This document shows positions 1,312 through 25,413 of a stretch of 64,000 bases of DNA, in pieces. Both the position numbers and the translations under genes were made by a program. The stretch is from Alteraurantiacibacter buctensis (GTDB lineage: Bacteria; Pseudomonadota; Alphaproteobacteria; Sphingomonadales; Sphingomonadaceae), in contig NZ_WTYV01000002.1 of NCBI RefSeq assembly GCF_009827655.1, forward strand, positions 496,657 to 560,656. The letters run 5' to 3'. The notes under the pieces are model-generated. The model saw only the letters and a list, made by a program, of their open reading frames with translations, was not told the DNA's origin and searched no databases. The number at the start of each line of letters is the position of its first letter. Position 1 is the first letter of the stretch.

Positions 1312-1498
1312 CGGATCACCTCCTTTCGCGCTGTTGAGCCTACACCCGAAGGTAGCCCTGCGGGCGAAGACCGCGTTAACCGCTGGCCTTGGGAGGGAAT
1401 GTGAGTCTTTGTGCGGCGCAACGCAAGACTTGTAATAATCTTTTTCCACGTCAGAATTGCGGGCTTCCGGCCTGGTGCTGAAGCACCCGCCGTCCCCC

Positions 1499-2050
1499 TC
1501 AGCGGCAATCCTCGATCACCCGGGTAATTTCCGGATAGCTGGGCAGGTACAGCGCCTGCCGCCCGTCCTCCACGGCGAAGCGGCCGCGCGAAAAGGCGAT
1601 CGCGTCCAGCAGGCTGTCGGCAGGCTGGAAGACCATTCGCGCTGCCATGCCGCTGAGGTTGGCCACCACCTGCCGCTCGGCGGTTTCGGTGCGGATCGTC
1701 AGCGTGCCGGCATTCCACCCATAGGCGGAGACGAACACCTGCCGGGGCGCGGCGGTGCAAGCCACCTGCGCCACCATTCGCCCCTGCGGGCTGCGGAACT
1801 CGGCAATGCTGTCACCGCCCTCGCTGCGCCAGGTCCAGTCGCCCGAGGTGAGCGGTGCGTGCACCCAGTCGGTCCATACCGGCTGGGCCACCGGCGCGGC
1901 GCTGGCGACGGGCGCGGGGGCCGGGTTGGGGGCAGGCGCGGGGGCCGGGGCAGGGGCGGGAGCGGGCGCGGTGGTTGGCGGCGGCACGCAGCCAGCCAGC
2001 AGCAGGACTAGCGCAGCGGGAGCGGAACGGATCATCAGGCGGTGCTTCAC
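1499..2050 (-). CDS. Putative lipoprotein, downstream member of a tandem pair
   Basis: Predicted outer-membrane or periplasmic lipoprotein of 183 residues. The GTG at 2050 overlaps the stop of the upstream gene (GTGA), implying translational coupling. ATG 2035 is the alternative start. The N-terminus is a lipoprotein signal with lipobox LLAGC, followed by a Pro/Ala repeat linker of about 30 residues. The mature domain ends TRVIEDCR, resembling the end of its neighbour (GRVLEGCQ), so the two are probably diverged paralogues. Function unknown. Confidence 0.75.
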   Translation of the reverse strand: MKHRLMIRSAPAALVLLLAGCVPPPTTAPAPAPAPAPAPAPNPAPAPVASAAPVAQPVWTDWVHAPLTSGDWTWRSEGGDSIAEFRSPQGRMVAQVACTAAPRQVFVSAYGWNAGTLTIRTETAERQVVANLSGMAARMVFQPADSLLDAIAFSRGRFAVEDGRQALYLPSYPEITRVIEDCR

Positions 2051-2559
2051 TGGCAGCCCTCCAGCACGCGGCCGAGGCCGCTGGTTGATGGCACGGTAAT
2101 GGAAGGCCCGCCCGGCTGGGTCACGGTGATCGTGCCGCCGGGCTGGATGAAGCCGACGAAGACCGGCGCTTGCCGTTCGATGGCGGCAACCTGGTGCGGA
2201 TCGGCGGTATTGCCATCGGCCACGGTGTCCAGCCGCGCGGCGGTGCCGCCGGCCTGCAGCACGAAGGCCGTGTTGCCCGGCGTGGGGTTGGCGATGGCGA
2301 GCGTAACCGCCGTGGTGGCCATGTCGCAGTTCATCGCCAGCAGGCTCTTGCCGTCGGTCCCGACAAAGCTGGCCTTCACCCCGCTGGCATCCTCGTTCAC
2401 CTGCCATTCGCCAGGGGCCTCAGCAGGCGCGCCCGCAGCAGCCGGGATCTGGGCGGCGGCAGCCGAGGCCGCAGCAGCGGGCGCATCTTCTGCCGAACTG
2501 CACCCTGCCAGCACGGCGGCGGCCAGCAGGGGAAACAGGCGGTGGGGTTGGTGCAACAT
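2047..2559 (-). CDS. Putative lipoprotein, upstream member of a tandem pair
   Basis: 170 residues starting at ATG 2559, with a strong ribosome site (GAGAGGA) just upstream. The signal peptide ends in the lipobox VLAGC, so the cysteine should be lipidated. An Ala-rich low-complexity linker (roughly residues 23-50) precedes a domain of about 115 residues with one conserved Cys near its start and one at its end (RVLEGCQ). Its stop overlaps the GTG start of the next gene, so they form an operon. No known family recognised. Confidence 0.8.
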   Translation of the reverse strand: MLHQPHRLFPLLAAAVLAGCSSAEDAPAAAASAAAAQIPAAAGAPAEAPGEWQVNEDASGVKASFVGTDGKSLLAMNCDMATTAVTLAIANPTPGNTAFVLQAGGTAARLDTVADGNTADPHQVAAIERQAPVFVGFIQPGGTITVTQPGGPSITVPSTSGLGRVLEGCQ

Positions 2560-2674
2560 GGATCCTCTCAACGTCAGCGGCGAATCGGTGGTTCCGCCCC
2601 TGGCCGGCAAATGTGACAGCGCGTCACACAATTGCCTCTGGCGCGCCAATCGCCGCCATCCTATCGCCGCTGGC

Positions 2675-3430
2675 ATGGCTGAGGGCAAGAGCAGCAAGCA
2701 GCGGATCGACCAGTTGCTGGTGGAGCGGGGCGAGGCGGAAAGCCGCGCCCGCGCGCAGGCGCTGCTGATGGCGGGGCTGGTATTCGTGGGCGGCACGCGC
2801 GTCGACAAGCCGGGGCAGAAGGTGCCGTCGGACGCGCCGATCGAGGTGAAAGGCCGCGATCACCCCTGGGTGGGGCGCGGCGGAGTGAAGCTGGACGGGG
2901 CGATCAGGCTGTTCGGCCTGGACCCCACGGGCGCGGTGGCGATGGACATCGGCAGTTCCACCGGCGGCTTTACCCAGGTGCTGCTGCACCACGGGGCGGA
3001 GCATGTTTACGCGGTGGACGTAGGCACCAACCAGCTCGATTGGCGGCTGCGCAACGATCCGCGCATCGCCGTGCTGGAACAGACCAACGCCCGCGAGTTG
3101 ACGCCTGCGTTGATCGACCGGCCGTGCAACTGGGTGGTGTGCGATGCGTCCTTCATTTCGCTGGCCAAGGTGCTGGAAGTGCCGCTGAAACTGGCCGCGC
3201 CGACCTGCCGACTGGTGGCGCTGATCAAGCCCCAGTTCGAGGCCCGGCGCGAGGAAGTGGGCAAGGGCGGCATTATCCGCGATCCCGCAGTTCATAGCCG
3301 AGTGTGCGACGAGGTAACCGCCTGGCTGGAAGCCAGTGGCTGGACGGTCGAGAACCTGGCACCGAGCCCGATCACCGGGACGGAAGGCAACGTGGAATTC
3401 CTTGTTTCGGCCTGGCGTTCGGGGGATTGA
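2675..3430 (+). CDS. tlyA: TlyA-family rRNA 2'-O-methyltransferase / hemolysin-like protein
   Basis: 251 residues. An S4 RNA-binding domain (about 9-58) precedes an FtsJ/RrmJ-type Rossmann methyltransferase. The SAM-binding motif is DIGSSTGGFT at 91-100. K72, D157, K185 and E241 line up with the K-D-K-E tetrad of 2'-O-ribose methyltransferases of this family. Known TlyA proteins methylate cytidines in 16S and/or 23S rRNA. The annotation hemolysin is historical. The start at 2675 sits immediately before the S4 domain. It stands alone on the plus strand, divergent from the lipoprotein pair. Confidence 0.9.
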   Translation: MAEGKSSKQRIDQLLVERGEAESRARAQALLMAGLVFVGGTRVDKPGQKVPSDAPIEVKGRDHPWVGRGGVKLDGAIRLFGLDPTGAVAMDIGSSTGGFTQVLLHHGAEHVYAVDVGTNQLDWRLRNDPRIAVLEQTNARELTPALIDRPCNWVVCDASFISLAKVLEVPLKLAAPTCRLVALIKPQFEARREEVGKGGIIRDPAVHSRVCDEVTAWLEASGWTVENLAPSPITGTEGNVEFLVSAWRSGD

Positions 3431-3539: not shown

Positions 3540-4091
3540 ATGAACCGGCTTGCCAGCCCCGCCCAGTTGCGTGCCAGCCTGCTGCGCTGGGCGCTGTTCC
3601 TGATCCCGCTGGTGATGCTGCTGGGGTTCCTCTCTGGCCGGGTGGGCGGCGATGCCACCAGCCCGTGGTTCATGGCGCTGGAAAAGCCCGCCATCTTCCC
3701 CCCGCCGGTGACCTTCGGCATCGTCTGGTCGGCGCTCTATTTCATGATGGGGCTGGCGCTGGCGATGGTCTGCGCCGCCTGGGGCGCGCGCTGGCGACCT
3801 TGGGCGATTGCCGCCTTCGTGGTGCAACTGGCGCTCAACCTCACCTGGTCGCCGGTGTTCTTCGGCGCGCATGATATTCCGCTGGCCCAGGCGATCCTGC
3901 TGGCGCTGGTCCTGGCCGTGGCGGTAACGATCTGGCTGTTCGCCAGGGTCCGCAAGGCAGCGGCCTGGCTGCTGGTGCCCTATATGGCGTGGATCCTGTT
4001 CGCCAGCGTGCTCAACTGGCAGTTCCTGCAACTGAACCCCGATGCCAAGGAGATCGATGCGAACAACGCGGTGCAGGTGATCGAACTCTGA
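3540..4091 (+). CDS. tspO: TspO/MBR family tryptophan-rich membrane protein
   Basis: 183 residues with five hydrophobic segments, matching the family size. It has the family signature WFMALEKPAIFPPP near residue 41, LNLTWSPVFFG in the fourth segment and SVLNWQFLQLN near the end. TspO binds tetrapyrroles and sterol-like ligands in the outer membrane and affects pigment and stress responses in Rhodobacter. The role here is inferred from the family. The gap to the next gene holds a dispersed repeat. Confidence 0.92.
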   Translation: MNRLASPAQLRASLLRWALFLIPLVMLLGFLSGRVGGDATSPWFMALEKPAIFPPPVTFGIVWSALYFMMGLALAMVCAAWGARWRPWAIAAFVVQLALNLTWSPVFFGAHDIPLAQAILLALVLAVAVTIWLFARVRKAAAWLLVPYMAWILFASVLNWQFLQLNPDAKEIDANNAVQVIEL

Positions 4092-4096
4092 TTGTC

Positions 4097-4195
4097 CGCA
4101 CGCCCATTCGGGCGCGCGATCCTCGGTGCTGGTAGCTCCACTTCGTTGCGCGGCACCTGCGGGCGGTCGTTCGACCTTGCGGGCCTTTGGCCCGT
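4097..4195 (+). repeat. Dispersed intergenic repeat, third copy
   Basis: This gap segment repeats the pattern of 917-1030 in the same orientation: GATCCTCGGTGCTGG, a CTCCacttCG block and CACCTGCGGGCGGTCGTTCG, ending in CCTTGCGG. Identity to the first copy is partial. It fills most of the space between tspO and the ubiK-like gene. Confidence 0.65.
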
Positions 4196-4238
4196 TTGCC
4201 CTATTGATCTGACGCAGCGACAGGACCACATAGCCCCC

Positions 4239-4487
4239 ATGCAAAGCGAAAACCCGATCATCGCCGACTTCGTCAAGCTGGCCAACTCCGCCGCCGGAAC
4301 CCTTGCCGGCATGACCCGCGAGGCGCGGGATTCCGCGCGCGAGCGGATGAAGGACGCGCTGGGTGGCATGGATTTCGTCACCCGCGAGGAATTCGACACG
4401 GTGAAGCAAATGGCCGCCACCGCGCGCGAGAAGGTGGAGGCGCTGGAAGCCCGCCTGGCGGCGCTGGAAGCTGCCCAGCCGAAGTAG
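4239..4487 (+). CDS. ubiK: UbiK-like accessory factor (BMFP domain)
   Basis: 82 residues from ATG 4239. The second half is a predicted coiled coil (EKVEALEARLAALEAAQPK) preceded by FVTREEFDTVKQ, the signature of the BMFP/YqiC family. In enterobacteria UbiK (YqiC) assists aerobic ubiquinone synthesis through the UbiJ complex. The N-terminal half is a helix rich in polar residues. Family assignment is good; the ubiquinone role is transferred from E. coli. Confidence 0.8.
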   Translation: MQSENPIIADFVKLANSAAGTLAGMTREARDSARERMKDALGGMDFVTREEFDTVKQMAATAREKVEALEARLAALEAAQPK

Positions 4488-4524
4488 GCTTGCCGCCGTC
4501 GCAGTCGCACGGCAGTGATACCCG

Positions 4525-5127
4525 ATGCAACTCCGCACCCCCGCCGTGTGCCTTGCCGCACGCCCGCATGGCGAGACGGCGGTGGTGGCCCGCTTCCTGA
4601 CAGCCGATCACGGCCTTGTCGCCGGCTATGTCGCCGGCGGGCGGGGGCGCACCCTGCGCCCGGTGCTGATCCCCGGCAACGGGGTGGACCTGGCGATCAG
4701 CGCCCGCGGCGACAGCCAGTTGCCCTTTGCCAAACCGGAACTCGTCACCAGCCGCGCGCCGTTCCTGGCCGAGCCGCTGGCCGCCGCCGCGATCGGCTGG
4801 GCCTGCGCGGTTACCGCCAGCGCCTTGCCCGAACGCCAGGCCTATCCCTCGCTTTATCCTGCACTCGACGCTCTGCTCGATGCCGTGTGCCATGCCCCCT
4901 CGGCGCGCGGCTGGCTGGGGGCGCTGCTGGGCTATGAACTGCTGCTGCTGCGCGAGCTGGGCTATGGCGGGCAGGGTGCGCGGCCGGAGGGCGATCTGGC
5001 CGCCCTGCTGGCGCTGATGGACCGGCAGGGGCCGCAGATCGCCCACTACCTGCTTGCCCACGCCCGCGCAGACGTTATGGCGGCGCGCGCGCGGTTGCGC
5101 GAACTGCTGGGGCGTATGGAACAATGA
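4525..5127 (+). CDS. recO: DNA repair protein RecO
   Basis: 200 residues. The N-terminus has the OB-fold pattern of RecO ([20 protein letters not shown], then [10 protein letters not shown]), followed by a helical domain. RecO works with RecF and RecR to load RecA on SSB-coated gapped DNA. It lacks the four-cysteine zinc motif found in some RecO proteins. Its stop overlaps the leuB start by four bases (ATGA), so the two are cotranscribed and probably coupled. At 200 residues it is slightly short for the family (about 220-250). Confidence 0.88.
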
Positions 5128-6182
5128 AGATTGCATGTCTGGCCGGTGACGGGATCGGCCCCGAAATCATGGCGGAAGCGCTGAAGGTGCTGGACGTTCT
5201 GGCCATCGAGGGTCTGGAGCTGGGCCACGCCGACGTGGGCGGCACCGCCTATCACAAGCACGGCCACCCGCTGCCGCCGGAAACGCTGGCCCTGTGCCAG
5301 GCGAGCGATGCGGTGCTGTTCGGCGCGGTGGGCGATCCCACCTGCGACGCCCTGGAGCGGCACCTGCGCCCTGAACAGGCCATCCTGGGCCTGCGCCAGG
5401 CGCTGACGCTGTTTGCCAACCTGCGCCCCGCCACGATGTTTGCCGGCCTGGAAGACCTTTCCGCCCTGCGCCCCGAAGTGGCCCGGCAGATCGACCTGCT
5501 GATCGTGCGCGAACTGAACGGTGACGTCTACTTCGGCGAAAAGGCCATCCGCACGCTGCCCGATGGCCGCCGCCAGGGCTATGACTTCATGTCCTATGCC
5601 GAGGACGAGGTGCGCCGCATCGCCCATGTGGCCTTCCGCGCCGCGCAGGGCCGCAAGAAGACGCTGTGCAGCGTGGACAAGGCCAACGTGCTGGAAACCA
5701 GCCAGTTGTGGCGCGACGTGGTGATCGAGGTGAGCGCCGAATACCCCGACGTGGCGCTGAGCCACATGTACGTGGACAATGCCGCCATGCAGCTCGTCCG
5801 CAACCCCGGCCAGTTCGACGTGGTGGTCACCGGCAACCTGTTCGGCGATATCCTGTCGGACCAGGCCAGCATGTGCGTGGGCTCGATCGGCCTGCTCGCC
5901 AGCGCCAGCCTGGGCGAGAAGCAGACGCAGTACGGCACGCTGGGCCTGTACGAGCCGATCCACGGTTCCGCGCCGGACATTGCCGGGCAGGGCAAGGCCA
6001 ACCCGATGGCCATGATCCTGTCGCTGGCCATGCTGCTGCGCCACTCGCTGGGGCTGGAGGCACAGGCCGCGCGGGTGGAGGCTGCGGTCGCGCAGGCGCT
6101 GGCCGACGGCATCAAGGGTGCGGACCTCGGCGGCAGCCACGGCACTGCGGCGATCGGGGACGCGGTCGCCAGCCGCCTATAG
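5124..6182 (+). CDS. leuB: 3-Isopropylmalate dehydrogenase
   Basis: 352 residues, normal length. Motifs in order: GDGIGPEI (8-15), [13 protein letters not shown] in the substrate-binding region, [13 protein letters not shown] with the metal-binding aspartates, and [18 protein letters not shown] at the NAD-binding end. The enzyme oxidises and decarboxylates (2R,3S)-3-isopropylmalate in leucine biosynthesis. It overlaps recO by 4 nt; leuC and leuD are not in this window. Confidence 0.97.
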
Positions 6183-6245
6183 ACCCGTAAACCTCCCATA
6201 AACCGTAAACCTCTTGTTAGCCTTAACCATGTATCGCCCCGGGGC

Positions 6246-7400
6246 ATGGATATGACGCAGTCGCACTTTACTCCCGCTGCCGAAGTCGCCGCTCCGTCGG
6301 GTGCTGCGCCGCTCGAACTGGCCGTGGTGATGCCCACCCTGAACGAGCGCGGGAACATTGCGCCGATGGTGGCACGCCTGGAAGAGGCGCTGGGCCCTAC
6401 CGGCTGGGAAGCCGTGTTCGTGGACGATAACAGCCGCGATGGCACGGCCGACGAGGCCCGCCGCATCGGCCGCACCGATCCGCGCATTCGGGTGATCCAG
6501 CGCATCGGCCGCCGGGGGCTGGCCAGCGCCGCGATCGAAGGCATGTGCGCCACCGCCGCCCCCTTCGTGGCGGTGATGGATGCCGACCACCAGCACGATC
6601 CCGCGCTGCTAAGGCATATGCTGGAAGCGGTGAAGAGCGGCGAGGCTGACCTGGCCTATGCCAGCCGTTTCGCCGTGGGCGGCAACGCCGATGGCCTGAC
6701 CAGCAAGGGCCGCGAGAACGGCAGCCGCTTTGCCAATGCCGTTGCCCGCAAACTGACCGGCACCGAGCTGTCGGATGCCATGAGCGGCTTCTTCCTGCTG
6801 CGAACCGACCAGCTCCGTAGCCAAGCGCAGGATCTTTCCGGCATCGGTTTCAAGATCATGCTGGACATTCTTGCCACAGCTTCCCCGCAACTCCGCGTGA
6901 AGGAATTCCCCCTGAAATTTGCCGAACGGCTCTCGGGCGAGAGCAAGCTGGACCATGCCGTGGTGCTGGATTTCCTGGCCGGGCTGTATGAACGCTACCT
7001 CGGCAGGTACATTCCCACCCGCTTTGCCCTGTTCGGCACCGTGGGGGGGCTGGGCGTATTCGTCCACATGGCGGTGCTGGCGGCGCTGTTCCGCACGGGC
7101 CTGACCACCTTCACCCTGGCCACCGCCGCCGCCACCATCGTGGCGATGACGTTCAACTTCTGGCTCAACAACCTGCTCACATATCGCGACAAGAAGCTGA
7201 CCGGGGCCAAGGCGATGTTCTATGGCTGGATGGGCTTTTGCGCCACCAGCGCCGTGGGCGCTTTCGCCAACGTGGCGGTGAGCAGCTATCTCCAGGGCCA
7301 CGGCTGGCGCTGGTGGGCGGCCGCCTTGATCGGCGTGGTGCTGGCATCGGTGTGGAACTATGCGCTCTCCAGCAAGTTTGTCTGGGGTCGCTACCGCTAG
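6246..7400 (+). CDS. GT2 dolichol-phosphate-mannose-synthase-like transferase fused to a GtrA membrane domain
   Basis: 384 residues. Residues about 25-250 form a GT-A glycosyltransferase of family 2: VVMPTLNERGN (27-37), FVDDNSRDGT and the metal-binding DAD at 112-114. Residues about 258-384 are a four-helix GtrA-like domain with NFWLNNLLTYR and WNYALSSKFVW. This architecture is that of polyprenyl-phosphate mannose or glucose synthases that keep their lipid product at the membrane. A GT39-type transferase, which would use such a donor, lies convergently downstream. The sugar is unknown. Confidence 0.9.
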   Translation: MDMTQSHFTPAAEVAAPSGAAPLELAVVMPTLNERGNIAPMVARLEEALGPTGWEAVFVDDNSRDGTADEARRIGRTDPRIRVIQRIGRRGLASAAIEGMCATAAPFVAVMDADHQHDPALLRHMLEAVKSGEADLAYASRFAVGGNADGLTSKGRENGSRFANAVARKLTGTELSDAMSGFFLLRTDQLRSQAQDLSGIGFKIMLDILATASPQLRVKEFPLKFAERLSGESKLDHAVVLDFLAGLYERYLGRYIPTRFALFGTVGGLGVFVHMAVLAALFRTGLTTFTLATAAATIVAMTFNFWLNNLLTYRDKKLTGAKAMFYGWMGFCATSAVGAFANVAVSSYLQGHGWRWWAAALIGVVLASVWNYALSSKFVWGRYR

Positions 7401-7486
7401 AACCCGGGACAAACCCGGGAAAAACCTGCCGCTGGTTGCGATGGACGGTGCCCCGGCACCGTCCCGGTGTCGCAAGGAGCAGGCAG

Positions 7487-7672
7487 ATGATGGCCCTGGC
7501 CATAGTAATCTTCGTGATCGACCTGATGGCGATCATCAACATCGTGCAGAGCGTGGCCCGGCCCCCGGCCAAGGCGCTGTGGATTGTTGCCGTGATCCTG
7601 CTGCCGGTCCTGGGTGCAGGGGCCTGGTTCCTGGCCCCGGCCCCGCGCCGCTCATCGTCCAGGATGCGCTAG
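7487..7672 (+). CDS. Small two-helix membrane protein, PLDc_N type
   Basis: 61 residues with two membrane helices (about 3-24 and 31-50) joined by SVARPPAKALWIV. The second helix LPVLGAGAWFL and the basic tail PAPRR resemble the N-terminal domain of cardiolipin-synthase-like PLD proteins (PLDc_N), which often exists as a stand-alone small protein. A strong ribosome site (AAGGAG) precedes ATG 7487. It ends 4 bp before the convergent GT39 gene. Function of the stand-alone form is unknown. Confidence 0.75.
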   Translation: MMALAIVIFVIDLMAIINIVQSVARPPAKALWIVAVILLPVLGAGAWFLAPAPRRSSSRMR

Positions 7673-7676
7673 GCGT

Positions 7677-8951
7677 TTAGCGCCAGCCAACCAGCCAGGC
7701 ATAATCCAGGAACGCCTGCTCGCCCGCCAGCGGCGCGGCGGTCAGGATCGGGTAGAACCACACGAACACGCCGGTCGACCCCAGCACGATCGCGGCCGGG
7801 GTCAGCCGTTCGCCGTTCTGCCACAGCTTCTCCACCCCAAGCGCCAATGCGGCCATGGCGAAGCAGTGCGGCAAAACGTAATGATAGTAGAACTGCACCG
7901 GCTTGGGGGCCAGCACCCACAGCGCCATGCTGACAAGGTAGAGCACCAGCAGCGCCGCACAGTCGCGCCGCCCCTGCTTCCACCAGGCCCAGCCACACCA
8001 CAGCAGCGCGGGCAGGGCCGCCAGCGAGCTGAGCGGATTGCCCATCATCAGCACCCCGCGCTGGGCCCCGTCGGTCACCTCGTAGAGATACCAGATCGCC
8101 CGCGTGTTGCTGGCCCATTGCCACCATTGGCTCTGGTAGGGATGCGGCGGCAGCACCTGCGTCTGCAGGTCCAGCATCTGCCGGTGGAGCGCAATCAGGC
8201 CGGTAGGGTTGCCCGGCACCGTGGCATAGAACGGGAACGGCCAATAGGTTGCCGCATAGGCCAGCAGCGGCACCACGGCCAGCCACAGCGCCGCCTCGGC
8301 CAGCGTCATGCCGCCGATCGGCCAGCCCCGGTTGCTGGTGAGGAAGTGCGCGCGGCCCTGCCAGGCGCGGGCGATGAAGAAGGCCAGCCCCGGCAGCATG
8401 GCAATGGGGATGGCGTTCCACTTGGCGGCCATCGCCAGCCCCAGCGCCGCGCCGCCCAGGGCCAGCCGCCAGCGCGCCGTCTCCGGCTCGCGGTAGGCCC
8501 CGGCGCACTGCCACAGGCCCAGCATCACGAATGACAGCATGAACACGTCCAGCATGGCGATCCGCGCCTGGAGCAGCAGCGGAAAGCCGGTGACGAGGAA
8601 CAGGCCCGTCAGCAGGCTGGCCGCGCGGCTGAGGCTGAGGAACCACATGGCGCGCACGGCGCCAAACAGCGCCAGGATACCAAACAGCAGCGGCATGATC
8701 CGCCAGCCCAGCGGCTCGTCTCCGAACAGCAGCATGCCAAGCGCGATCAGTTCCTTCCCCAGCGGCGGATGTTCCAGGTTTACCGCATCGGACAGCGCCA
8801 GCAGGTTGCGCGCGGCGGGCATGTAATGCACCTCGTCGAACATCGGGCCGGACGGAATCGTCAGCCGCACGCAGGCCAGCACGGCGAACAACGCGGTGAT
8901 GACGATGTGCCAGCAGATCGGATCGGCAGGGTGGTGCGGCGGCTGGCTCAT
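7677..8951 (-). CDS. GT39 (PMT-type) membrane glycosyltransferase
   Basis: 424 residues with about ten hydrophobic segments. The first periplasmic loop carries FDEVHY (38-43, catalytic Asp-Glu pair of PMT proteins) and EHPPLGK (60-66), both hallmarks of protein O-mannosyltransferase-like GT-C enzymes. Later segments include VQFYYHYVLPHCF. The family moves mannose or a related sugar from a polyprenyl-phosphate donor to protein or lipid in the periplasm. The nearby GT2-GtrA protein (6246-7400) could make that donor. The acceptor is unknown. Confidence 0.88.
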   Translation of the reverse strand: MSQPPHHPADPICWHIVITALFAVLACVRLTIPSGPMFDEVHYMPAARNLLALSDAVNLEHPPLGKELIALGMLLFGDEPLGWRIMPLLFGILALFGAVRAMWFLSLSRAASLLTGLFLVTGFPLLLQARIAMLDVFMLSFVMLGLWQCAGAYREPETARWRLALGGAALGLAMAAKWNAIPIAMLPGLAFFIARAWQGRAHFLTSNRGWPIGGMTLAEAALWLAVVPLLAYAATYWPFPFYATVPGNPTGLIALHRQMLDLQTQVLPPHPYQSQWWQWASNTRAIWYLYEVTDGAQRGVLMMGNPLSSLAALPALLWCGWAWWKQGRRDCAALLVLYLVSMALWVLAPKPVQFYYHYVLPHCFAMAALALGVEKLWQNGERLTPAAIVLGSTGVFVWFYPILTAAPLAGEQAFLDYAWLVGWR

Positions 8952-9043
8952 GCCAGGCCACGATTAGGCTGCGATGACAGGCCGCGCAACACTTGCCCCG
9001 CGCCACTTGCTCTGGGCCCCCCACGCTCCTAAACGCTGCGCTC

Positions 9044-10252
9044 ATGAAGAGAACCTCCGGCTCCGATCGCTCGCTGACTTCCAAGTGGCGCCCTGCCACC
9101 CGTGCCGTGCGCGCGGGCACCATGCGCAGCGAGCACGGCGAGACGAGCGAGGCGCTGTTCCTGACCAGCGGCTATACCTATGACAGCGCCGAGACGGTGG
9201 CCGCGCGCTTCCGGGGCGATGCCAGCGGCATGCAGTATTCGCGCTTCCAGAACCCCACCGTGGCCATGCTGGAAGAACGCATCGCCGCGATGGAAGGGGC
9301 CGAGGCGTGCAAGGTGCAGGCCAGCGGCATGGCGGCGATGACGAGTGCGTTGCTGTGCATGCTCAGCGCCGGCGATCACGTGGTGGCGGGCAAGGCGGCG
9401 TTCGGCAGCTGCCGGTGGATCCTGGCCAACGTGCTCAACCGCTTCGGCATCACCCACACCATCGTGGACGGGCGCAACAATGCCGAGTGGGAAGCGGCGA
9501 TCCAGCCCAACACCAAGGTGTTTTTCTTCGAAACGCCGGCCAACCCCACGCTGGATATCGTTGACCTGGCCTATGTCTGCGGCCTGGCCCGCGCACACGG
9601 CATCACCACCGTGGTGGACAACGCCTTTGCCACCGCCAGCCTGCAACGGCCGCTGGAATTCGGGGCAGACGTGGTCGCCTATTCGGCCACCAAGCTGATG
9701 GACGGGCAAGGCCGCGTGCTGGCGGGGGCGCTGTGCGGGTCCAGCCAGTGGATCAACGAAGTGCTGAGTCCGTTTCAGCGGAACACCGGCCCTGTGCTCT
9801 CGCCGTTCAATGCCTGGGTGGTGCTGAAGGGGCTGGAGACGCTGGACCTGCGCGCCCACAAGCAGAGCGAGAACGCGCTGGCCGTGGGCCGCTTCGTGGA
9901 AAGCCGCGTGGCCCGCGTGTTGCACCCGGGCCTGCCCAGCTTTGCCCAGCACGAACTGGCGGCAAAGCAGATGGACGCCTTCGGGCCGATCTTCAGCTTC
10001 GTGGTCGATGGCGGGCGGGAAAAGGCCTTTGCCGTGCTCGATGCGCTGGAGCTGGTCGATATCTCCAACAACATCGGCGATTCCAAGTCGCTGGCTTGCC
10101 ACCCGGCCAGCACCACGCACCACAACATGGGGCCGGAGGGCCGCGCCGACATGGGCGTGGACGAAGGGATGATCCGCATCAACGTGGGGCTGGAAGATCC
10201 GCTCGACGTGATCGAGGACCTGGACCAGGCGTTCAGCAAGGCCGGCATCTAG
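9044..10252 (+). CDS. metZ: O-succinylhomoserine sulfhydrylase
   Basis: 402 residues of the Cys/Met-metabolism PLP family. YSRFQNPT (65-72) contacts the PLP phosphate of the neighbouring subunit, D192 (VVDNAFA) pairs with the PLP nitrogen, and K217 in YSATKLMDGQGR forms the Schiff base. The DGQGR context after the lysine is typical of MetZ, which uses sulfide to turn O-succinylhomoserine into homocysteine. The start at 9044 gives the usual N-terminus; longer starts overlap the divergent GT39 gene region without added conservation. Confidence 0.92.
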   Translation: MKRTSGSDRSLTSKWRPATRAVRAGTMRSEHGETSEALFLTSGYTYDSAETVAARFRGDASGMQYSRFQNPTVAMLEERIAAMEGAEACKVQASGMAAMTSALLCMLSAGDHVVAGKAAFGSCRWILANVLNRFGITHTIVDGRNNAEWEAAIQPNTKVFFFETPANPTLDIVDLAYVCGLARAHGITTVVDNAFATASLQRPLEFGADVVAYSATKLMDGQGRVLAGALCGSSQWINEVLSPFQRNTGPVLSPFNAWVVLKGLETLDLRAHKQSENALAVGRFVESRVARVLHPGLPSFAQHELAAKQMDAFGPIFSFVVDGGREKAFAVLDALELVDISNNIGDSKSLACHPASTTHHNMGPEGRADMGVDEGMIRINVGLEDPLDVIEDLDQAFSKAGI

Positions 10253-20923: not shown

Positions 20924-21688
20924 TCAGCCCCCCGCTCCGCTGTCCCCCTCAAGCGGCGGCAGGCCCTGCGCCGGATCGGGATAGCTCTCGCTGTCAATCG
21001 CCCGCTTGGCGAGCTCGCGCTCGGTCAGGAAATCGGCATAGTCGGGCGCGTGGCCCTCGGCCAGGTAGCGCTCGCGGATCTGGTCGGCATGGGCCTGCGC
21101 CTTGGCCCTGCGCCCGCGCAGCGCCACCATGAACTCGTAGAGTTCGCGCTCGCCATCCTCGTACCGGTCGGCCAGCACCTCGGCCCTGATGCGTTCATAG
21201 AGGGGGTGGCCCGCCTTCACCTCGGCGGCGCCATAGCGGCCCGCGCGACGGTTCTTCAGGAAGAACATCACCAGCGCATCGTTGTAGCGGATCTCGGTGC
21301 CCAGCACCTGGCCGCCGGAGACGACCATCCGCTCCTCCCCCCGGATGGCGCGGGCCAGCGCCCCGTCCTCCAGCCGCTCGATCCCGCGATCCACGGCGGC
21401 CTCCCACGCGGCACTGAACTCCTCGGCCCCCGCCTTGTGGCGCAGCTTGTAAAGCGCCTCCATGCTCGCCCCGATCTCGCGCGCGGCTTCGGAAACGATG
21501 CCGGTGGCGGCCAGGTGGGCGATGAAGGCGCGCTGGCGATCGGGCGTGATCGAATTGCGCCGCGGGGCCACATGGGGAACGGGCGCAAACTGCAACAGCG
21601 GATCATCGGGCGATGGCGCGGGCCCGTCGCGCACGGTCATGTAGCTGGTGGCCTGGCGAGGAGTGGCGCGGGTGCTCGGCTGGGTCAT
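20924..21688 (-). CDS. Helix-turn-helix protein of sphingomonad type (terminase-small-subunit-like)
   Basis: 254 residues from ATG 21688; ATG 21640 is a shorter alternative. After a Pro/Ser-rich start, residues about 40-85 read RQRAFIAHLAATGIVSEAAR then ASMEALYKLRHKAG, a helix-turn-helix of the kind seen in phage terminase small subunits and in many stand-alone sphingomonad proteins. The rest is helical and rich in Arg and Glu. No large terminase subunit or other phage gene is nearby, so a chromosomal DNA-binding role is more likely. Its first codons are duplicated at 22524-22660. Confidence 0.7.
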   Translation of the reverse strand: MTQPSTRATPRQATSYMTVRDGPAPSPDDPLLQFAPVPHVAPRRNSITPDRQRAFIAHLAATGIVSEAAREIGASMEALYKLRHKAGAEEFSAAWEAAVDRGIERLEDGALARAIRGEERMVVSGGQVLGTEIRYNDALVMFFLKNRRAGRYGAAEVKAGHPLYERIRAEVLADRYEDGERELYEFMVALRGRRAKAQAHADQIRERYLAEGHAPDYADFLTERELAKRAIDSESYPDPAQGLPPLEGDSGAGG

Positions 21689-21726
21689 GCGACTCGGCAG
21701 AGCATGGGTGGGGGTGTGCAGGAAAG
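21590..21726. repeat. 137-bp direct repeat, copy 1
   Basis: Covers the start and upstream region of the helix-turn-helix gene. It matches 22524-22660 over the full 137 bp. The run from AGCTGGTGGCC through GCAGAGCATGGG is identical, as are the first 24 bases; differences cluster in the middle. Confidence 0.85.
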
Positions 21727-21820
21727 GGCTTTTGTAGCCTGAATACGCTAGCGCGACCCACTGGATGAGAAATTGGCAACCGCTTCGGAACCGTTCGTCG
21801 CACAATCATAGGAAAAATAC

Positions 21821-21895
21821 ATGGATCACACTTTGATACAAATTTATCCCGTAAAAACAGCGACTTTTATAGGAGAAGTCCTGCGCCAAATTTGA
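21821..21895 (+). CDS. 24-codon ORF directly before the winged-helix regulator
   Basis: ATG 21821 has a ribosome site (AGGAA, 7-nt spacing) and encodes MDHTLIQIYPVKTATFIGEV plus four residues. Its TGA overlaps a TTG codon in frame with the downstream regulator (ATTTGA). The region is AT-rich compared with its surroundings. It could be a leader peptide that couples translation to the regulator, or a chance ORF. Confidence 0.35.
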   Translation: MDHTLIQIYPVKTATFIGEVLRQI

Positions 21896-21930
21896 CACAG
21901 GCAAACGTATCGTCCATCCATGATACGCCA

Positions 21931-22485
21931 ATGGCTACTAGCCCGGCGGCGCAATCACGGGGGCGGACGGGGATGACGGCAGGCGCTGCACGGCAAGACA
22001 TCATCAATCGCCTGGCGACGGACTGGAAGCCGCAGGACATACGCAGCCTGGCCGCCACGCTGCTGCGGCTGGCGGATTCGCTGGACCAGGGATGGGACGG
22101 GTCCAACGTGCAGTCCATTTTCCGCTGGCCCTCGGCGCTGGCCAGGATCGAGCGCAATGCGATGCAACTGGCGATGAAGGCGCGCCTGATCACCGAGCAG
22201 CGCGGCCGCCGCCGCGATTACATCGATGGGGACCTGCTTGGCGAACCCGCGTGGGATATGCTGCTTGACCTGTTCATGCAGTTTGCCGGCGGGGCCAGCG
22301 TCTCCACCACCAGCCTGTGCATCGCCTCGCGCGTGCCCGGCACCACGGCGCTGCGCTATATCACGCTGCTTGAGGACAAGGGCTACGTCGCCCGCAGACC
22401 GTCGGAGATGGATGGGCGCGTGATGCTGGTCAGCCTGACCGATACGGGCGTGCTGGCCGTGGGGCGCTATCTCGAACAGTGCTGA
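21931..22485 (+). CDS. Winged-helix regulator, MarR-like
   Basis: 184 residues if ATG 21931 is used. TTG 21892 (13 codons longer, coupled to the small ORF) and ATG 21973 are alternatives. The C-terminal half has a winged-helix layout: LDLFMQFAGGASVSTTSLCI, then RYITLLEDKGYVARRPSE and DGRVMLVSLTDTG, the usual wing of MarR-type proteins. The N-terminal half is helical with DWKPQDIRSLAATLLRLAD. It lies between the two copies of the 137-bp repeat and upstream of the GHKL-nuclease gene, whose expression it might control. Confidence 0.75.
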   Translation: MATSPAAQSRGRTGMTAGAARQDIINRLATDWKPQDIRSLAATLLRLADSLDQGWDGSNVQSIFRWPSALARIERNAMQLAMKARLITEQRGRRRDYIDGDLLGEPAWDMLLDLFMQFAGGASVSTTSLCIASRVPGTTALRYITLLEDKGYVARRPSEMDGRVMLVSLTDTGVLAVGRYLEQC

Positions 22486-22523
22486 ACCGCCGGTAGCCCG
22501 GCCTGGGCGCGGCGGAGCGCATG

Positions 22524-22660
22524 CTGCAACAGCGGATCATCGGGCGAGGGCTTCGGCCCGTTGCGCGCGGGGCTTTAGCTGGTGGCCTGGCGAGGAGTGG
22601 CGCGGGTGCTCGGCTGGGTCATGCGACTCGGCAGAGCATGGGGGTGGGGGTGTAGGAAAG
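22524..22660 (-). pseudogene. Duplicated 5' fragment of the helix-turn-helix gene (repeat copy 2)
   Basis: Second copy of the 137-bp repeat. On the minus strand it repeats the first 15 codons (MTQPSTRATPRQATS) and then meets a stop codon where copy 1 continues. The rest of the gene is absent, so this is a non-functional remnant. It ends exactly where base composition drops before the GHKL-nuclease gene. Confidence 0.8.
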
Positions 22661-22714
22661 AGGAATTTCGTGTAGACACTAAGATACACAAACTGCAGCG
22701 GATTTGAGGTCAGA

Positions 22715-24721
22715 ATGAAGTTTGATATTGTAGGACGCATTCAAAACATGCGCCTCCCCGATGGCAAGACAGCGATCCTTTATTCAATATATGAAGCTGT
22801 GAGTAACTCGCTTCATTCGATAGAAGATCGATTTGGTTCTGAGGCCGCAAAAAAAGGCTGGATACACGTGTCCATCGCCACCGATAATGATGGAGATGTC
22901 GACAAGATAAGCATCACAGACAATGGTATCGGGTTCAACGAAGAAAATCTTGAGTCCTTTGAGACTAGCGATAGTAGGCATAAATATGTCCGGGGCGGCA
23001 AAGGTGTTGGGCGATTTATTTGGATAAAAACATTCAATAAAATCCGCGTGGATAGTGTAACTAAGAATGGTCGCGCTAAAGAAAGAGTCCGCTTTCGGTT
23101 CATGCCGGAAAAACCTAATTCGATTGCTTACAAGCGCGTAACTAGCGCTTCTGGCGAGGACTATGAGACGACTGTCGAGTTGTCTGGATTGCGTACCGAG
23201 CAGAAAGGACAGATTCGAGTTAGCTCGTATCTCAAAGACCTCTGTTTACATTTTTTTCCGCAATTCATTACAGGGCGGTTGCCTAAAATCACCATAGAGC
23301 ATGGCGACGAAGAAGAGTCATTGAACGATTTTATTGCAGCCCGGGTCGGAAATGTTACGTCGCAGAAAGTGAGTATCGAAATAGGTGGCGTGTCTTACGG
23401 TTTTGATTTTCATCACTTATTCGTTTCAGGCACAATGCCGCCGGGCGTCAAAAACTCCTACATGTTGACCGGACACGGAAGATTGGTCGGAGACCCGATT
23501 TCGCTTGCGGCCAAGTTCGATCTTGGATCGCTTGATGGCGACAAGGCTTACTCTTTGGTGGTAACTGGCTCCTACCTTGACGAAAGGGTCGATCAGGAGC
23601 GACTGAGCTTTCGAATGCCTACAGAAGCGAGAAAGCTGCTCGAAACGGCGGTCCTTAAATCTGCCGAGAGCTTTCTGGAGGATCACCTTGCGGTTGTCCG
23701 TGAAAAGCAAAAAAATACTGTTAGAGAAATACTGTTTGAGCATCCTCAATTGGCAACTCAGGTGGCTGACTTGGACGAGTATGTTCGTCAAATTTCACCT
23801 GACATGGATCGGGAGAAAATTGCCCAGAATCTTTTTGTCCTTTTAGTTCGAGACGAAGAGGAGGTCAGAAGGGAATTCCAAAAACTTTGTGATTTGGATA
23901 ATCTTACTGAAGAGGCGCGAGAAAGGGCTGAGCAGATTTTGGCAGAGGCGGAAAATCAGGAAAAACACCGCCTTGCTGAGTTAGTCGTCAAAAGGCATCA
24001 GGTTCTTGAGATTGCAAACATGTTACTCAAGTTCGAGGATGCTGAGGTCGGAACCTACGCGAAAGAGCAGGCCATTCACGACTTGATTTTGCCGATGGGC
24101 AAAATGTTTAAGAGTGGCGACATGGCCGACCACAACTTGTGGATCATTGATGATGCCCTGGCGCATTATGGGTTCTTTGCATCTGATAAACCAATCGGAG
24201 CCTTCACCGACGCCAAGGATGGCAAGAAGGAACCTGACGGAATTTTCTTCAATCCCCTTGGGTTCTGTGAGGAGGGGCGACAAGGCACCATTACGATCCT
24301 CGAATTTAAACGGCCTGGCGATGAGCGAGCAACATCTGATCCTGTTGATCAGGTCCTAAATTATATCGAAAAATTGAGAGATTCGAAAGCACGGGGCTTT
24401 GATGGTGAAGTTATTGCGGATATAGGTAAGCAAACTAGATTTGAATGTATTATAGTATGTGAATTGACTTCTGCTGTAAGAAAGAAGTTGGAGCGTTCCT
24501 TAGCTCAAAGCCCAACACCAGACGGTGAAGGGTATTATGGGTGGTCAAAGGAGCATAACGCGGCGATCCGAGTTGTTTCTTTCCGAAAGATGCTTCGGGA
24601 TGCGGAGATTCGGAATTTGCCGCTTTTCAGAAGGTTGGGGCTTACCAGCCCGTCAAGTCGGGCGAAGATGAGGCTTGCTCGTAGGCTTGCCGAAAAGGAC
24701 AAGATAAGGATCGTAGACTAA
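22715..24721 (+). CDS. GHKL (Bergerat-fold) ATPase with C-terminal PD-(D/E)XK-type nuclease domain
   Basis: 668 residues, start ATG 22715 with GAGG at 22706-22709. N-terminal ATPase: N-box E27/N31 in YEAVSNSLHSI, G1 box D69-N-G-I-G73, G2 box GGKGVGRF (94-101). A long charged helical region (about 330-450) links to the C-terminal domain, where D508 (EPDGIFF), E530-x-K532 (ILEFKRP) and Q546-x3-Y550 (DQVLNYI) match a RecB-like nuclease core. The end (TPDGEGYYGWSKEHNA) is conserved in proteins of this kind as I know them. GC and codon use are far below the neighbours, showing recent transfer. MORC/MutL-type ATPases paired with nucleases occur in restriction-related systems, so phage defence is a reasonable inference, not shown. 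Confidence 0.82.
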   Translation: MKFDIVGRIQNMRLPDGKTAILYSIYEAVSNSLHSIEDRFGSEAAKKGWIHVSIATDNDGDVDKISITDNGIGFNEENLESFETSDSRHKYVRGGKGVGRFIWIKTFNKIRVDSVTKNGRAKERVRFRFMPEKPNSIAYKRVTSASGEDYETTVELSGLRTEQKGQIRVSSYLKDLCLHFFPQFITGRLPKITIEHGDEEESLNDFIAARVGNVTSQKVSIEIGGVSYGFDFHHLFVSGTMPPGVKNSYMLTGHGRLVGDPISLAAKFDLGSLDGDKAYSLVVTGSYLDERVDQERLSFRMPTEARKLLETAVLKSAESFLEDHLAVVREKQKNTVREILFEHPQLATQVADLDEYVRQISPDMDREKIAQNLFVLLVRDEEEVRREFQKLCDLDNLTEEARERAEQILAEAENQEKHRLAELVVKRHQVLEIANMLLKFEDAEVGTYAKEQAIHDLILPMGKMFKSGDMADHNLWIIDDALAHYGFFASDKPIGAFTDAKDGKKEPDGIFFNPLGFCEEGRQGTITILEFKRPGDERATSDPVDQVLNYIEKLRDSKARGFDGEVIADIGKQTRFECIIVCELTSAVRKKLERSLAQSPTPDGEGYYGWSKEHNAAIRVVSFRKMLRDAEIRNLPLFRRLGLTSPSSRAKMRLARRLAEKDKIRIVD

Positions 24722-25041
24722 TAGGTGCTCCCCAACCCTTGACCCCACCCCCGCACCCCGCTAAGGGCGCGCTCTTCCGGGTGAGGGCTTGCCTGATCCC
24801 GGGCCAATAGAGCTGAACATTGCCGGTGTCGTCACTCCCCTAACGGAATGGCAGCCGTCAAAGTAACCCGGTGCCTTTATCGGCCATCGGGTGGAGCGTT
24901 TCAGGCTCGTGTCAGGACCTTCGCTGGCCTGAGGGGCTTCTGCCCTTCGACAGGCTCAGGGCGAGCGGTTTTCTGGAACGGTCCTCAATCACTCCATCCC
25001 TGGCCAGGCGGGCACCTTTTGAACGAAGGTGAAAAACCCTA
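24722..25041. other. 320-bp gap before the str operon
   Basis: GC-rich again immediately after the acquired gene. It contains a 26-bp repeat at 24943-24968 and the ribosome site of rpsL (AAGGTGAA). It must hold the str-operon promoter, but no -35/-10 pair with standard spacing is convincing. No gene is supported. Confidence 0.5.
24943..24968. repeat. 26-bp intergenic repeat (CCCTTCGACAGGCTCAGGGC type)
   Basis: A short partly palindromic sequence that I recognise as a very common intergenic repeat in many proteobacterial genomes. It lies 74 bp upstream of rpsL. Confidence 0.6.
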
Positions 25042-25413
25042 ATGCCCACGATCAACCAGTTGGTCCGCAAGCCGCGCAATCCCGTAAAGGTGAAGAGCAA
25101 GGTGCCGGCCTTGGAGCAGAACCCGCAGAAGCGCGGCGTCTGCACCCGCGTGTACACCACCACCCCGAAGAAGCCGAACTCCGCTCTGCGCAAGGTGGCC
25201 AAGATCCGCCTGACCAACAAGCGCGAAGTGATCGCCTATATCCCGGGCGAGGGCCACAACCTGCAGGAGCACAGCGTTGTGCTGATCCGCGGCGGCCGTG
25301 TGCGCGACCTTCCCGGCGTGCGCTACCACGTGCTGCGCGGCGTGCTCGACACGCAGGGCGTGAAGGATCGCCGCCAGAGCCGCTCGAAGTACGGCGCCAA
25401 GCGTCCGAAGTAA
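25042..25413 (+). CDS. rpsL: 30S ribosomal protein S12
   Basis: 123 residues, usual length. The decoding-site loop reads [15 protein letters not shown], with the lysine that is changed in streptomycin-resistant strains still present, and the second loop has [14 protein letters not shown]12 sits at the decoding centre of the 30S subunit. First gene of the str group. It is followed by a 140-bp gap containing an 18-bp perfect hairpin. Confidence 0.98.

Follow-up and report, generated by a model that had tools for sequence, protein, structure and literature searches.

The combination of a GHKL domain, an S5 domain and a C-terminal RE-fold domain with an E-D-ExK signature was described as paraMORC3 by Iyer, Abhiman and Aravind (2008; PMC2292703). 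In that paper, paraMORC3 is patchily distributed and mobile, a 'standalone' subset occurs in proteobacteria and bacteroidetes, matches to the RecB family are reported, and an accessory role in R-M is raised as an alternative for some standalone members. Adams et al. (2025; PMC12137116) report VcSduA, a single gene that combines a GHKL domain with a DUF4263 nuclease. It acts on T1-like phages in E. coli and on X29 in its own host, and is inactive as E27A or K557A when tested in E. coli. VcSduA protects cultures at every multiplicity tested, which the authors read as direct restriction; following Gu et al. (2025), they name it a type I-D Shedu, and they state that proteins of its layout were annotated as paraMORC3. 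In EcSduA, an N-terminal clamp binds DNA ends (review PMC12904381).

Here we analyse a 668-aa protein encoded in a 64-kb window (the whole stretch of DNA studied) on a contig of a 3.77-Mb genome. The preliminary description of this DNA knew of no described function for the architecture; paraMORC3 (PMC2292703) and phage restriction by VcSduA (PMC12137116) precede it. The architecture is thus already described, and the 668-aa protein is a standalone member of the paraMORC3 / GHKL-Shedu group. We consider it likely to be a single-gene DNA-targeting defence protein (type I-D Shedu, VcSduA-like) that would act as a homodimeric, ATP-gated nuclease against incoming DNA.

A GHKL ATPase and a nuclease domain in one folded protein

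Because searches with a single sequence proved too weak (phmmer with the 668-aa protein alone found 0 matches among PDB sequences, and a genome-contig search with it found 0 relatives among 47 pattern matches), we used profile searches. No PADLOC model matches the protein. Pfam HATPase_c does (E = 9.2e-7; 29.7 bits, cut-off 26.4), and because this match exceeds the cut-off, the GHKL boxes are more than a chance resemblance. These boxes (E27, N31, D69-N-G-I-G73 and GGKGVGRF at 94-101), like the C-terminal D508, E530-x-K532 and Q546-x3-Y550, lie where the preliminary description had placed them, and its reading of a GHKL ATPase joined to a PD-(D/E)XK-type nuclease in one gene is supported. Its 'long charged linker' between the two is, by contrast, predicted to be folded. 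In an AlphaFold2 monomer model built from a 96-row alignment (A2; mean pLDDT 91.7, pTM 0.79), most of residues 180-440 has block pLDDT of 85-98, with strands in 191-285 that resemble an S5/transducer domain and helices in 303-439 that form an arm (Table 1).

Table 1. Positions in the window of the 668-aa gene, its domains and the features of the surrounding slot
Feature	Position	Strand	Basis
terminase-small-subunit-like (terS-like) gene, left slot marker	20924..21805	-	PHROG 4044, E 2.3e-21
5' coding part of terS-like gene, reference copy of 144-nt direct repeat	21583..21726	.	
MarR/winged-helix-like ORF, other slot content	21892..22485	+	family search
second copy (89%) of 144-nt terS segment, 54 bp before GHKL gene	22517..22660	.	
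paraMORC3 / VcSduA-like gene, 668 aa, ATG start	22715..24721	+	ORF, HATPase_c match, alignments, model
GHKL ATPase domain, ~residues 1-190 (E27, N31, D69-G73, G94-F101)	22715..23284	+	boundary from model
S5/transducer-like domain, ~residues 191-300	23285..23614	+	model and Foldseek; boundary inferred
helical arm, residues 303-439	23621..24031	+	model
Shedu-like PD-(D/E)XK nuclease domain, ~residues 440-640 (E451, D508, E530-x-K532, Q546, Y550)	24032..24634	+	alignment, models, profile comparison
conserved right-hand flank element of slot	24736..24909	.	matched whole or in part
rpsL (S12), right slot marker	25042..25413	+	named from the sequence

A Foldseek search with the whole model retrieved SMCHD1 (E = 3.2e-12), Hsp90 (7.3e-12), MORC3 (1.0e-9) and MutL (1.8e-9), together with the ATPase modules of TRAP1, GyrB and topoisomerase VI, all with E from 3e-12 to 4e-9; the alignments mostly span 360-440 columns, at low TM-scores (TMq ~0.3, with rmsd 6-8 for most). 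The whole-protein profile likewise matched mainly GHKL chains among PDB sequences, and positions 217-326 of the profile matched Mlh1 weakly. Each part of the paraMORC3 layout is found in the protein: an N-terminal GHKL domain with intact ATP-binding motifs; an S5 domain after it, as judged from the model and from Foldseek matches whose whole-model TM-scores are low; and a C-terminal RE-fold domain with E-D-ExK, whose best fold match (McrC, E = 0.041) is itself weak. In the models, a strand-strand-helix order surrounds E451, D508 and E530-x-K532. The GHKL and S5 fold is common to MORC, MutL, SMCHD1 and Hsp90; these proteins are not known to carry a Shedu-type nuclease and have other biological roles. 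When the whole model was compared with viral structures, at least 12 of the best 50 matches were named RIIA or RIIA-like, which are phage proteins that share the GHKL-type fold.

Both active sites are strictly conserved

We collected full-length homologues and aligned them. All 157 full-length homologues (145 different sequences, with the protein's own copy included) retain E27, N31, D69, G71, G73, G97, G99, D508, E530 and K532, while Q546 is retained in 154 and Y550 in 146; because only full-length open frames were sampled, broken or partial copies had been excluded from the 157 beforehand. The same ten residues, and E451 in addition, are invariant in A2, which consists of the 668-aa protein and 95 homologues taken from 105 that remained after dereplication of 134 full-length ones, ten having been removed by hand, the two lowest-scoring among them. 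A smaller alignment (A1) holds the protein and 43 of 45 homologues, with L032 and L040 left out and partial frames dropped. Since the viral-contig and genome-collection loci were found by a pattern around HNLW-D, L475, W476 and D479 are conserved in part by design of the search. Both active sites, that of the GHKL ATPase and that of the D-ExK nuclease, are intact and strictly conserved. At its C-terminus the 668-aa protein has a helix (residues 646-667) that is absent from most aligned homologues.

By description, VcSduA has the same layout as the 668-aa protein: a single gene, a GHKL domain with E27 and a Shedu-type PD-(D/E)XK nuclease, with the catalytic lysine at 557 in VcSduA (PMC12137116) and at 532 here. 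In our alignments this lysine stands at 556 in Vibrio-side homologues such as L127, which also have E27, and at 557 in the viral-contig homologues L071 and L073. From the layout, E27 and the comparable placing of the catalytic lysine in Vibrio-side homologues, we infer kinship with VcSduA. The 668-aa protein is ~30% identical to the Vibrio-side homologues in A2, so its function could differ from theirs.

The nuclease domain resembles Shedu by profile comparison

Modelled alone from 96 sequences, the nuclease domain reached pLDDT 91.1 and pTM 0.88. A Foldseek search with this model gave no match at E 0.001; the best was McrC, a PD-(D/E)XK nuclease (E = 0.041), and no Shedu chain was among the best 50 of 216 matches. 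The domain's profile found one match among PDB sequences, a meaningless one. Matches to non-nuclease folds in the PDB profile search and in Foldseek were weak and none was convincing, which leaves the assignment of this part to a nuclease standing. Pfam SduA_C gives no match to the 668-aa protein, and thus none over its cut-off; it matches one of 44 homologues (E = 0.0077).

Because hhalign against a single Shedu sequence returned no match, we used instead a profile of nine SduA_C-type sequences (A4). Eight of these come from a search of 249 genomes, which yielded nine loci (L217 was left out, and L218, which was kept, lies below the Pfam cut-off); the ninth is from a V. fluvialis plasmid (SduA_C E = 1.3e-25). 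The profile of the nuclease domain aligned with A4 at a probability of 96.3 (E = 1.6e-9, score 65.3, 145 columns), and the alignment pairs D508, E530-x-K532 and Q546 with the D, ExK and Q of Shedu and the last strand with the last Shedu strand. The score was 55.5 when L218, the sole GHKL-fused row of A4, was removed; as controls, reversing A4 gave 13.9, and 60 column shuffles reached 21.2 at most. Because of this match, made with A4 as the one PD-(D/E)XK family compared in this way, we call the nuclease domain Shedu-like: at the level of sequence profiles it is so, and it lies beyond the reach of the Pfam SduA_C model. That Shedu is the closest family is suggested by the same match together with the literature. 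The 'RecB-like' label of the preliminary description is therefore less exact than Shedu/DUF4263-like, although it agrees with the RecB-family matches reported for paraMORC3 (PMC2292703). With EcSduA and the classical Shedu proteins (SduA_C / DUF4263) the 668-aa protein would thus share, by profile-profile match, the nuclease domain, whereas the N-terminal part is entirely different, being GHKL and S5 in the 668-aa protein.

The L218 frame is of interest in its own right. Spanning 1324-3141 of its locus on the minus strand, its 606 residues join a GHKL domain to a partial, below-cut-off SduA_C match, and it also matches the NCBIfam BbrUII/HgiDII restriction enzyme model at E = 5.8e-47, again below the cut-off. 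It is possibly a second GHKL-Shedu type.

Homologues are mobile and some adjoin restriction-modification genes

The preliminary description placed the gene in an acquired segment, and the wider sampling agrees. The GC content of the window is ~0.66 except for a single dip at 23-25 kb, where it falls to 0.49 over the gene, and the other 36 same-genus genomes hold no full-length copy, the one match being partial (G012, E = 6.1e-5); horizontal acquisition is probable. We found homologues in 54 plasmid records, and in 50 of these the match covers at least 80% of the query. A profile-guided search added 31 viral-contig loci and, from the genome collection, 488 places that we reduced to 80. Homologues are also present in 23 of 396 genomes sampled from the order (own genome included), in 8 of 398 from the phylum and in 7 of 385 from the class, samples that overlap and in which some matches are partial. 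One homologue lies in a phage (PJN03, L039, 2485-4509, covering 93% of the query). It is annotated as an N-acetylmuramoyl-L-alanine amidase, a name that is probably wrong. Homologues sitting as core genes were not seen; those examined are mobile and often lie beside R-M or Abi genes. None of six Vibrio-side or viral homologues tried is matched by an NCBIfam model.

Several individual loci deserve mention. On the Ti plasmid NC_002377.1 (L038), a homologue at 8055-10085 lies ~6 kb from repC, with PIN, TIR-domain and DUF3732 genes nearby, and 17 Agrobacterium plasmid records match. In L055, the start of the homologue shares 4 bp with the frame of a 1361-aa 'restriction endonuclease' (3892-7977); the two are likely a two-gene operon, different from type I R-M.

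The frequency of homologues on large plasmids and their presence in viral contigs bear on the target. Competing plasmids or other mobile elements, and not phages, could be what the protein mainly acts on, an explanation that overlaps with ours and differs from it in the target only. VcSduA, the relative that has been tested, acts on phages (PMC12137116), and we consider a mainly plasmid-directed activity unlikely. A separate question is whether the host survives. Abortive infection through general nuclease toxicity, that is, suicide in place of restriction of the invader, would fit the toxicity noted for heterologously expressed Shedu systems in a review (PMC12904381). The protection by VcSduA at all multiplicities tested, read by its authors as direct restriction (PMC12137116), argues against this, and suicide seems to us distinctly improbable.

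Neighbouring genes were compared across loci. Genes for R-M, Abi, AbiE, Shedu, SIR2 or SAVED proteins, as judged by product names and without a matched control, lie within ~8 kb in 12 of 20 annotated plasmid or phage loci; two further such loci are without annotation, and L040/L044 and L041/L042 are pairs with similar neighbourhoods. On two Vibrionaceae plasmids the homologue comes last in a type I R-M set, and on one of the two a Shedu gene lies in between. Among 102 non-plasmid loci, 21 match reference defence proteins and 17 match R-M ones, which is weak evidence because the references were drawn from the family's own neighbours and the control comprised 93 kb against 1.34 Mb. In a FastTree tree of the 96 rows, one half has R-M linkage at 11 of its 38 scanned loci and the other at 1 of its 32, the loci of the remaining 26 rows being too short for scanning; this clustering is modest, as 34 of 500 shuffles gave a value as low. 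The 668-aa protein forms a clade with L004, its nearest relative (57%, same bacterial family), and L065, a viral-contig copy (43%). This clade falls in the half with little R-M, the other half from the Vibrio-side homologues; of the two relatives, L065, the one scanned, showed no reference match.

These neighbourhoods raise the possibility that the 668-aa protein is an accessory of an R-M system encoded elsewhere in its genome and does not act alone, as the Vibrio-side homologues that end type I R-M gene sets and two N6_Mtase matches in its own genome, outside the window, would allow. On the other hand, no R-M gene adjoins it in the ORF lists of the window (where the immediate neighbours were family-searched), PF00145 has no match in its own genome, its half of the tree is the one with little R-M linkage, and VcSduA works alone in E. 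coli (PMC12137116); we give the accessory role little credence. Membership in an R-M operon was considered and rejected, as was a MutL-type repair gene. A MutL-like housekeeping protein of DNA repair or chromosome maintenance would share the GHKL and S5 fold, but with the low GC of the gene, its absence at full length from related genomes, and a distribution over plasmids, viral contigs and a small minority of genomes of the order, this is very improbable. We retain the reading of a defence protein acting alone, and DNA restriction or defence, which the preliminary description had proposed, is supported as the likely role.

The gene occupies a variable interval between terS and rpsL

The GHKL gene lies as a cassette of 49% GC between a gene resembling terS and one that we take to be rpsL, with the rest of the str operon presumably downstream; both names come from the sequences. 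We searched 40 same-genus genomes, found an rpsL match in 38 (own genome included), left out G026 and G029, whose rpsL matches are partial, and took the rpsL-upstream region of the 35 others (20 + 15). The terS-like marker is present in 28 of these 35, as well as in the window. The resulting 29 terS-rpsL intervals measure 1.6-4.6 kb and have a GC content of 0.46-0.61; all 29 are lower in GC than their own flanks. An element matching the flank at the right-hand side of the window's slot, whole or in part, is found in 34 of 35.

The cargo of the slot varies between species. Of 20 cargo proteins chosen by hand from 17 of the 35 slots, 12 have a PADLOC match (E <= 1e-5), which touches 11 of the 17 tested slots; the other six, L208 among them, have none at E 1e-5. 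The matches include DRT8, DRT6/4, AbiU, a KAP NTPase (PDC-S20), a Schlafen-like protein (PDC-S50) and an AriA-like ATPase, as well as ParB-like and Mrr-like proteins (PDC-M38A, PDC-S02), a type II (C5) methyltransferase, PDC-M66B, PDC-M36A and PDC-M05A; several of these families are candidate systems only, and the methyltransferase need not be defensive. As a control from one genome, none of ten flanking proteins of the window matched PADLOC. Pfam was run on 10 + 7 cargo proteins, none of them from the second batch of 15 slots. For some cargo a defensive role is not apparent: L195, for example, carries a 5'-nucleotidase and L204 an asparagine-synthase-like gene.

The slots sampled were window positions 20924-25042, L190-L209 and L219-L233; PADLOC recognises none of the long ORFs in L222, L225 and L228. 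In a sister species, the same slot holds a different GHKL protein of 656 aa (L208, 1370-3337, minus strand). It matches HATPase_c (E = 5e-5) and the profile of the 668-aa family (E = 2.8e-11), with PADLOC TmtA reaching only 4e-4; its matches in Pfam, PADLOC and NCBIfam are of GHKL type only.

Five of 29 loci (window, L192, L193, L202 and L225) carry within the slot a repeated fragment of the terS-like gene, taken from its 5' end, which is 105-247 bp long, has 75-92% identity and sits on the terS side of the rpsL-proximal ORF. In the window, the second copy of the 144-nt segment may be a terS remnant, a recombination scar, and the recurring fragments in general would be remnants of earlier packages of terS and cargo. 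Our tentative proposal, to which we give slightly less than even odds, is that the terS-rpsL interval serves the genus as a turnover slot for one- or two-gene defence systems. Packages of terS plus cargo would be swapped when terS and the conserved flank on the rpsL side recombine homologously, the slot having no recombinase of its own, and the 5' terS fragments would mark past exchanges. The GHKL-Shedu gene would be one such cargo, from a branch that works without an R-M partner.

Discussion

The 668-aa protein has the GHKL, S5 and RE-fold layout of paraMORC3, which likewise is mobile and includes standalone copies, and we found nothing that excludes it from that group. In MutL, Hsp90 and MORC, ATP binding closes a clamp formed by the GHKL and S5 domains.

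By analogy with GHKL proteins in general, the 668-aa protein may form an ATP-gated dimer clamp of the same sort. Two copies would dimerise through the GHKL and S5 module, ATP binding would close the clamp, and closure or turnover would let the two C-terminal Shedu-type PD-(D/E)XK domains cut the bound DNA. The target would most likely be incoming phage (or plasmid) DNA, and the host would not be killed. Direct restriction and a need for both active sites are suggested by analogy with VcSduA. DNA-end sensing as in EcSduA is a possibility by analogy alone, because GHKL and S5 domains replace the N-terminal clamp of EcSduA.

The kind of protein is already known, and the terS-rpsL slot is the fresher result; a thin literature search found no published description of a defence slot on the rpsL side. 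For the family, the analysis adds a standalone GHKL-Shedu protein that is distant from the Vibrio-side homologues, where VcSduA presumably belongs, and it names E27 and K532 as residues whose change should abolish function. For the genus, the slot beside the str operon means that small defence systems can apparently be collected by their position, including long ORFs that PADLOC misses.
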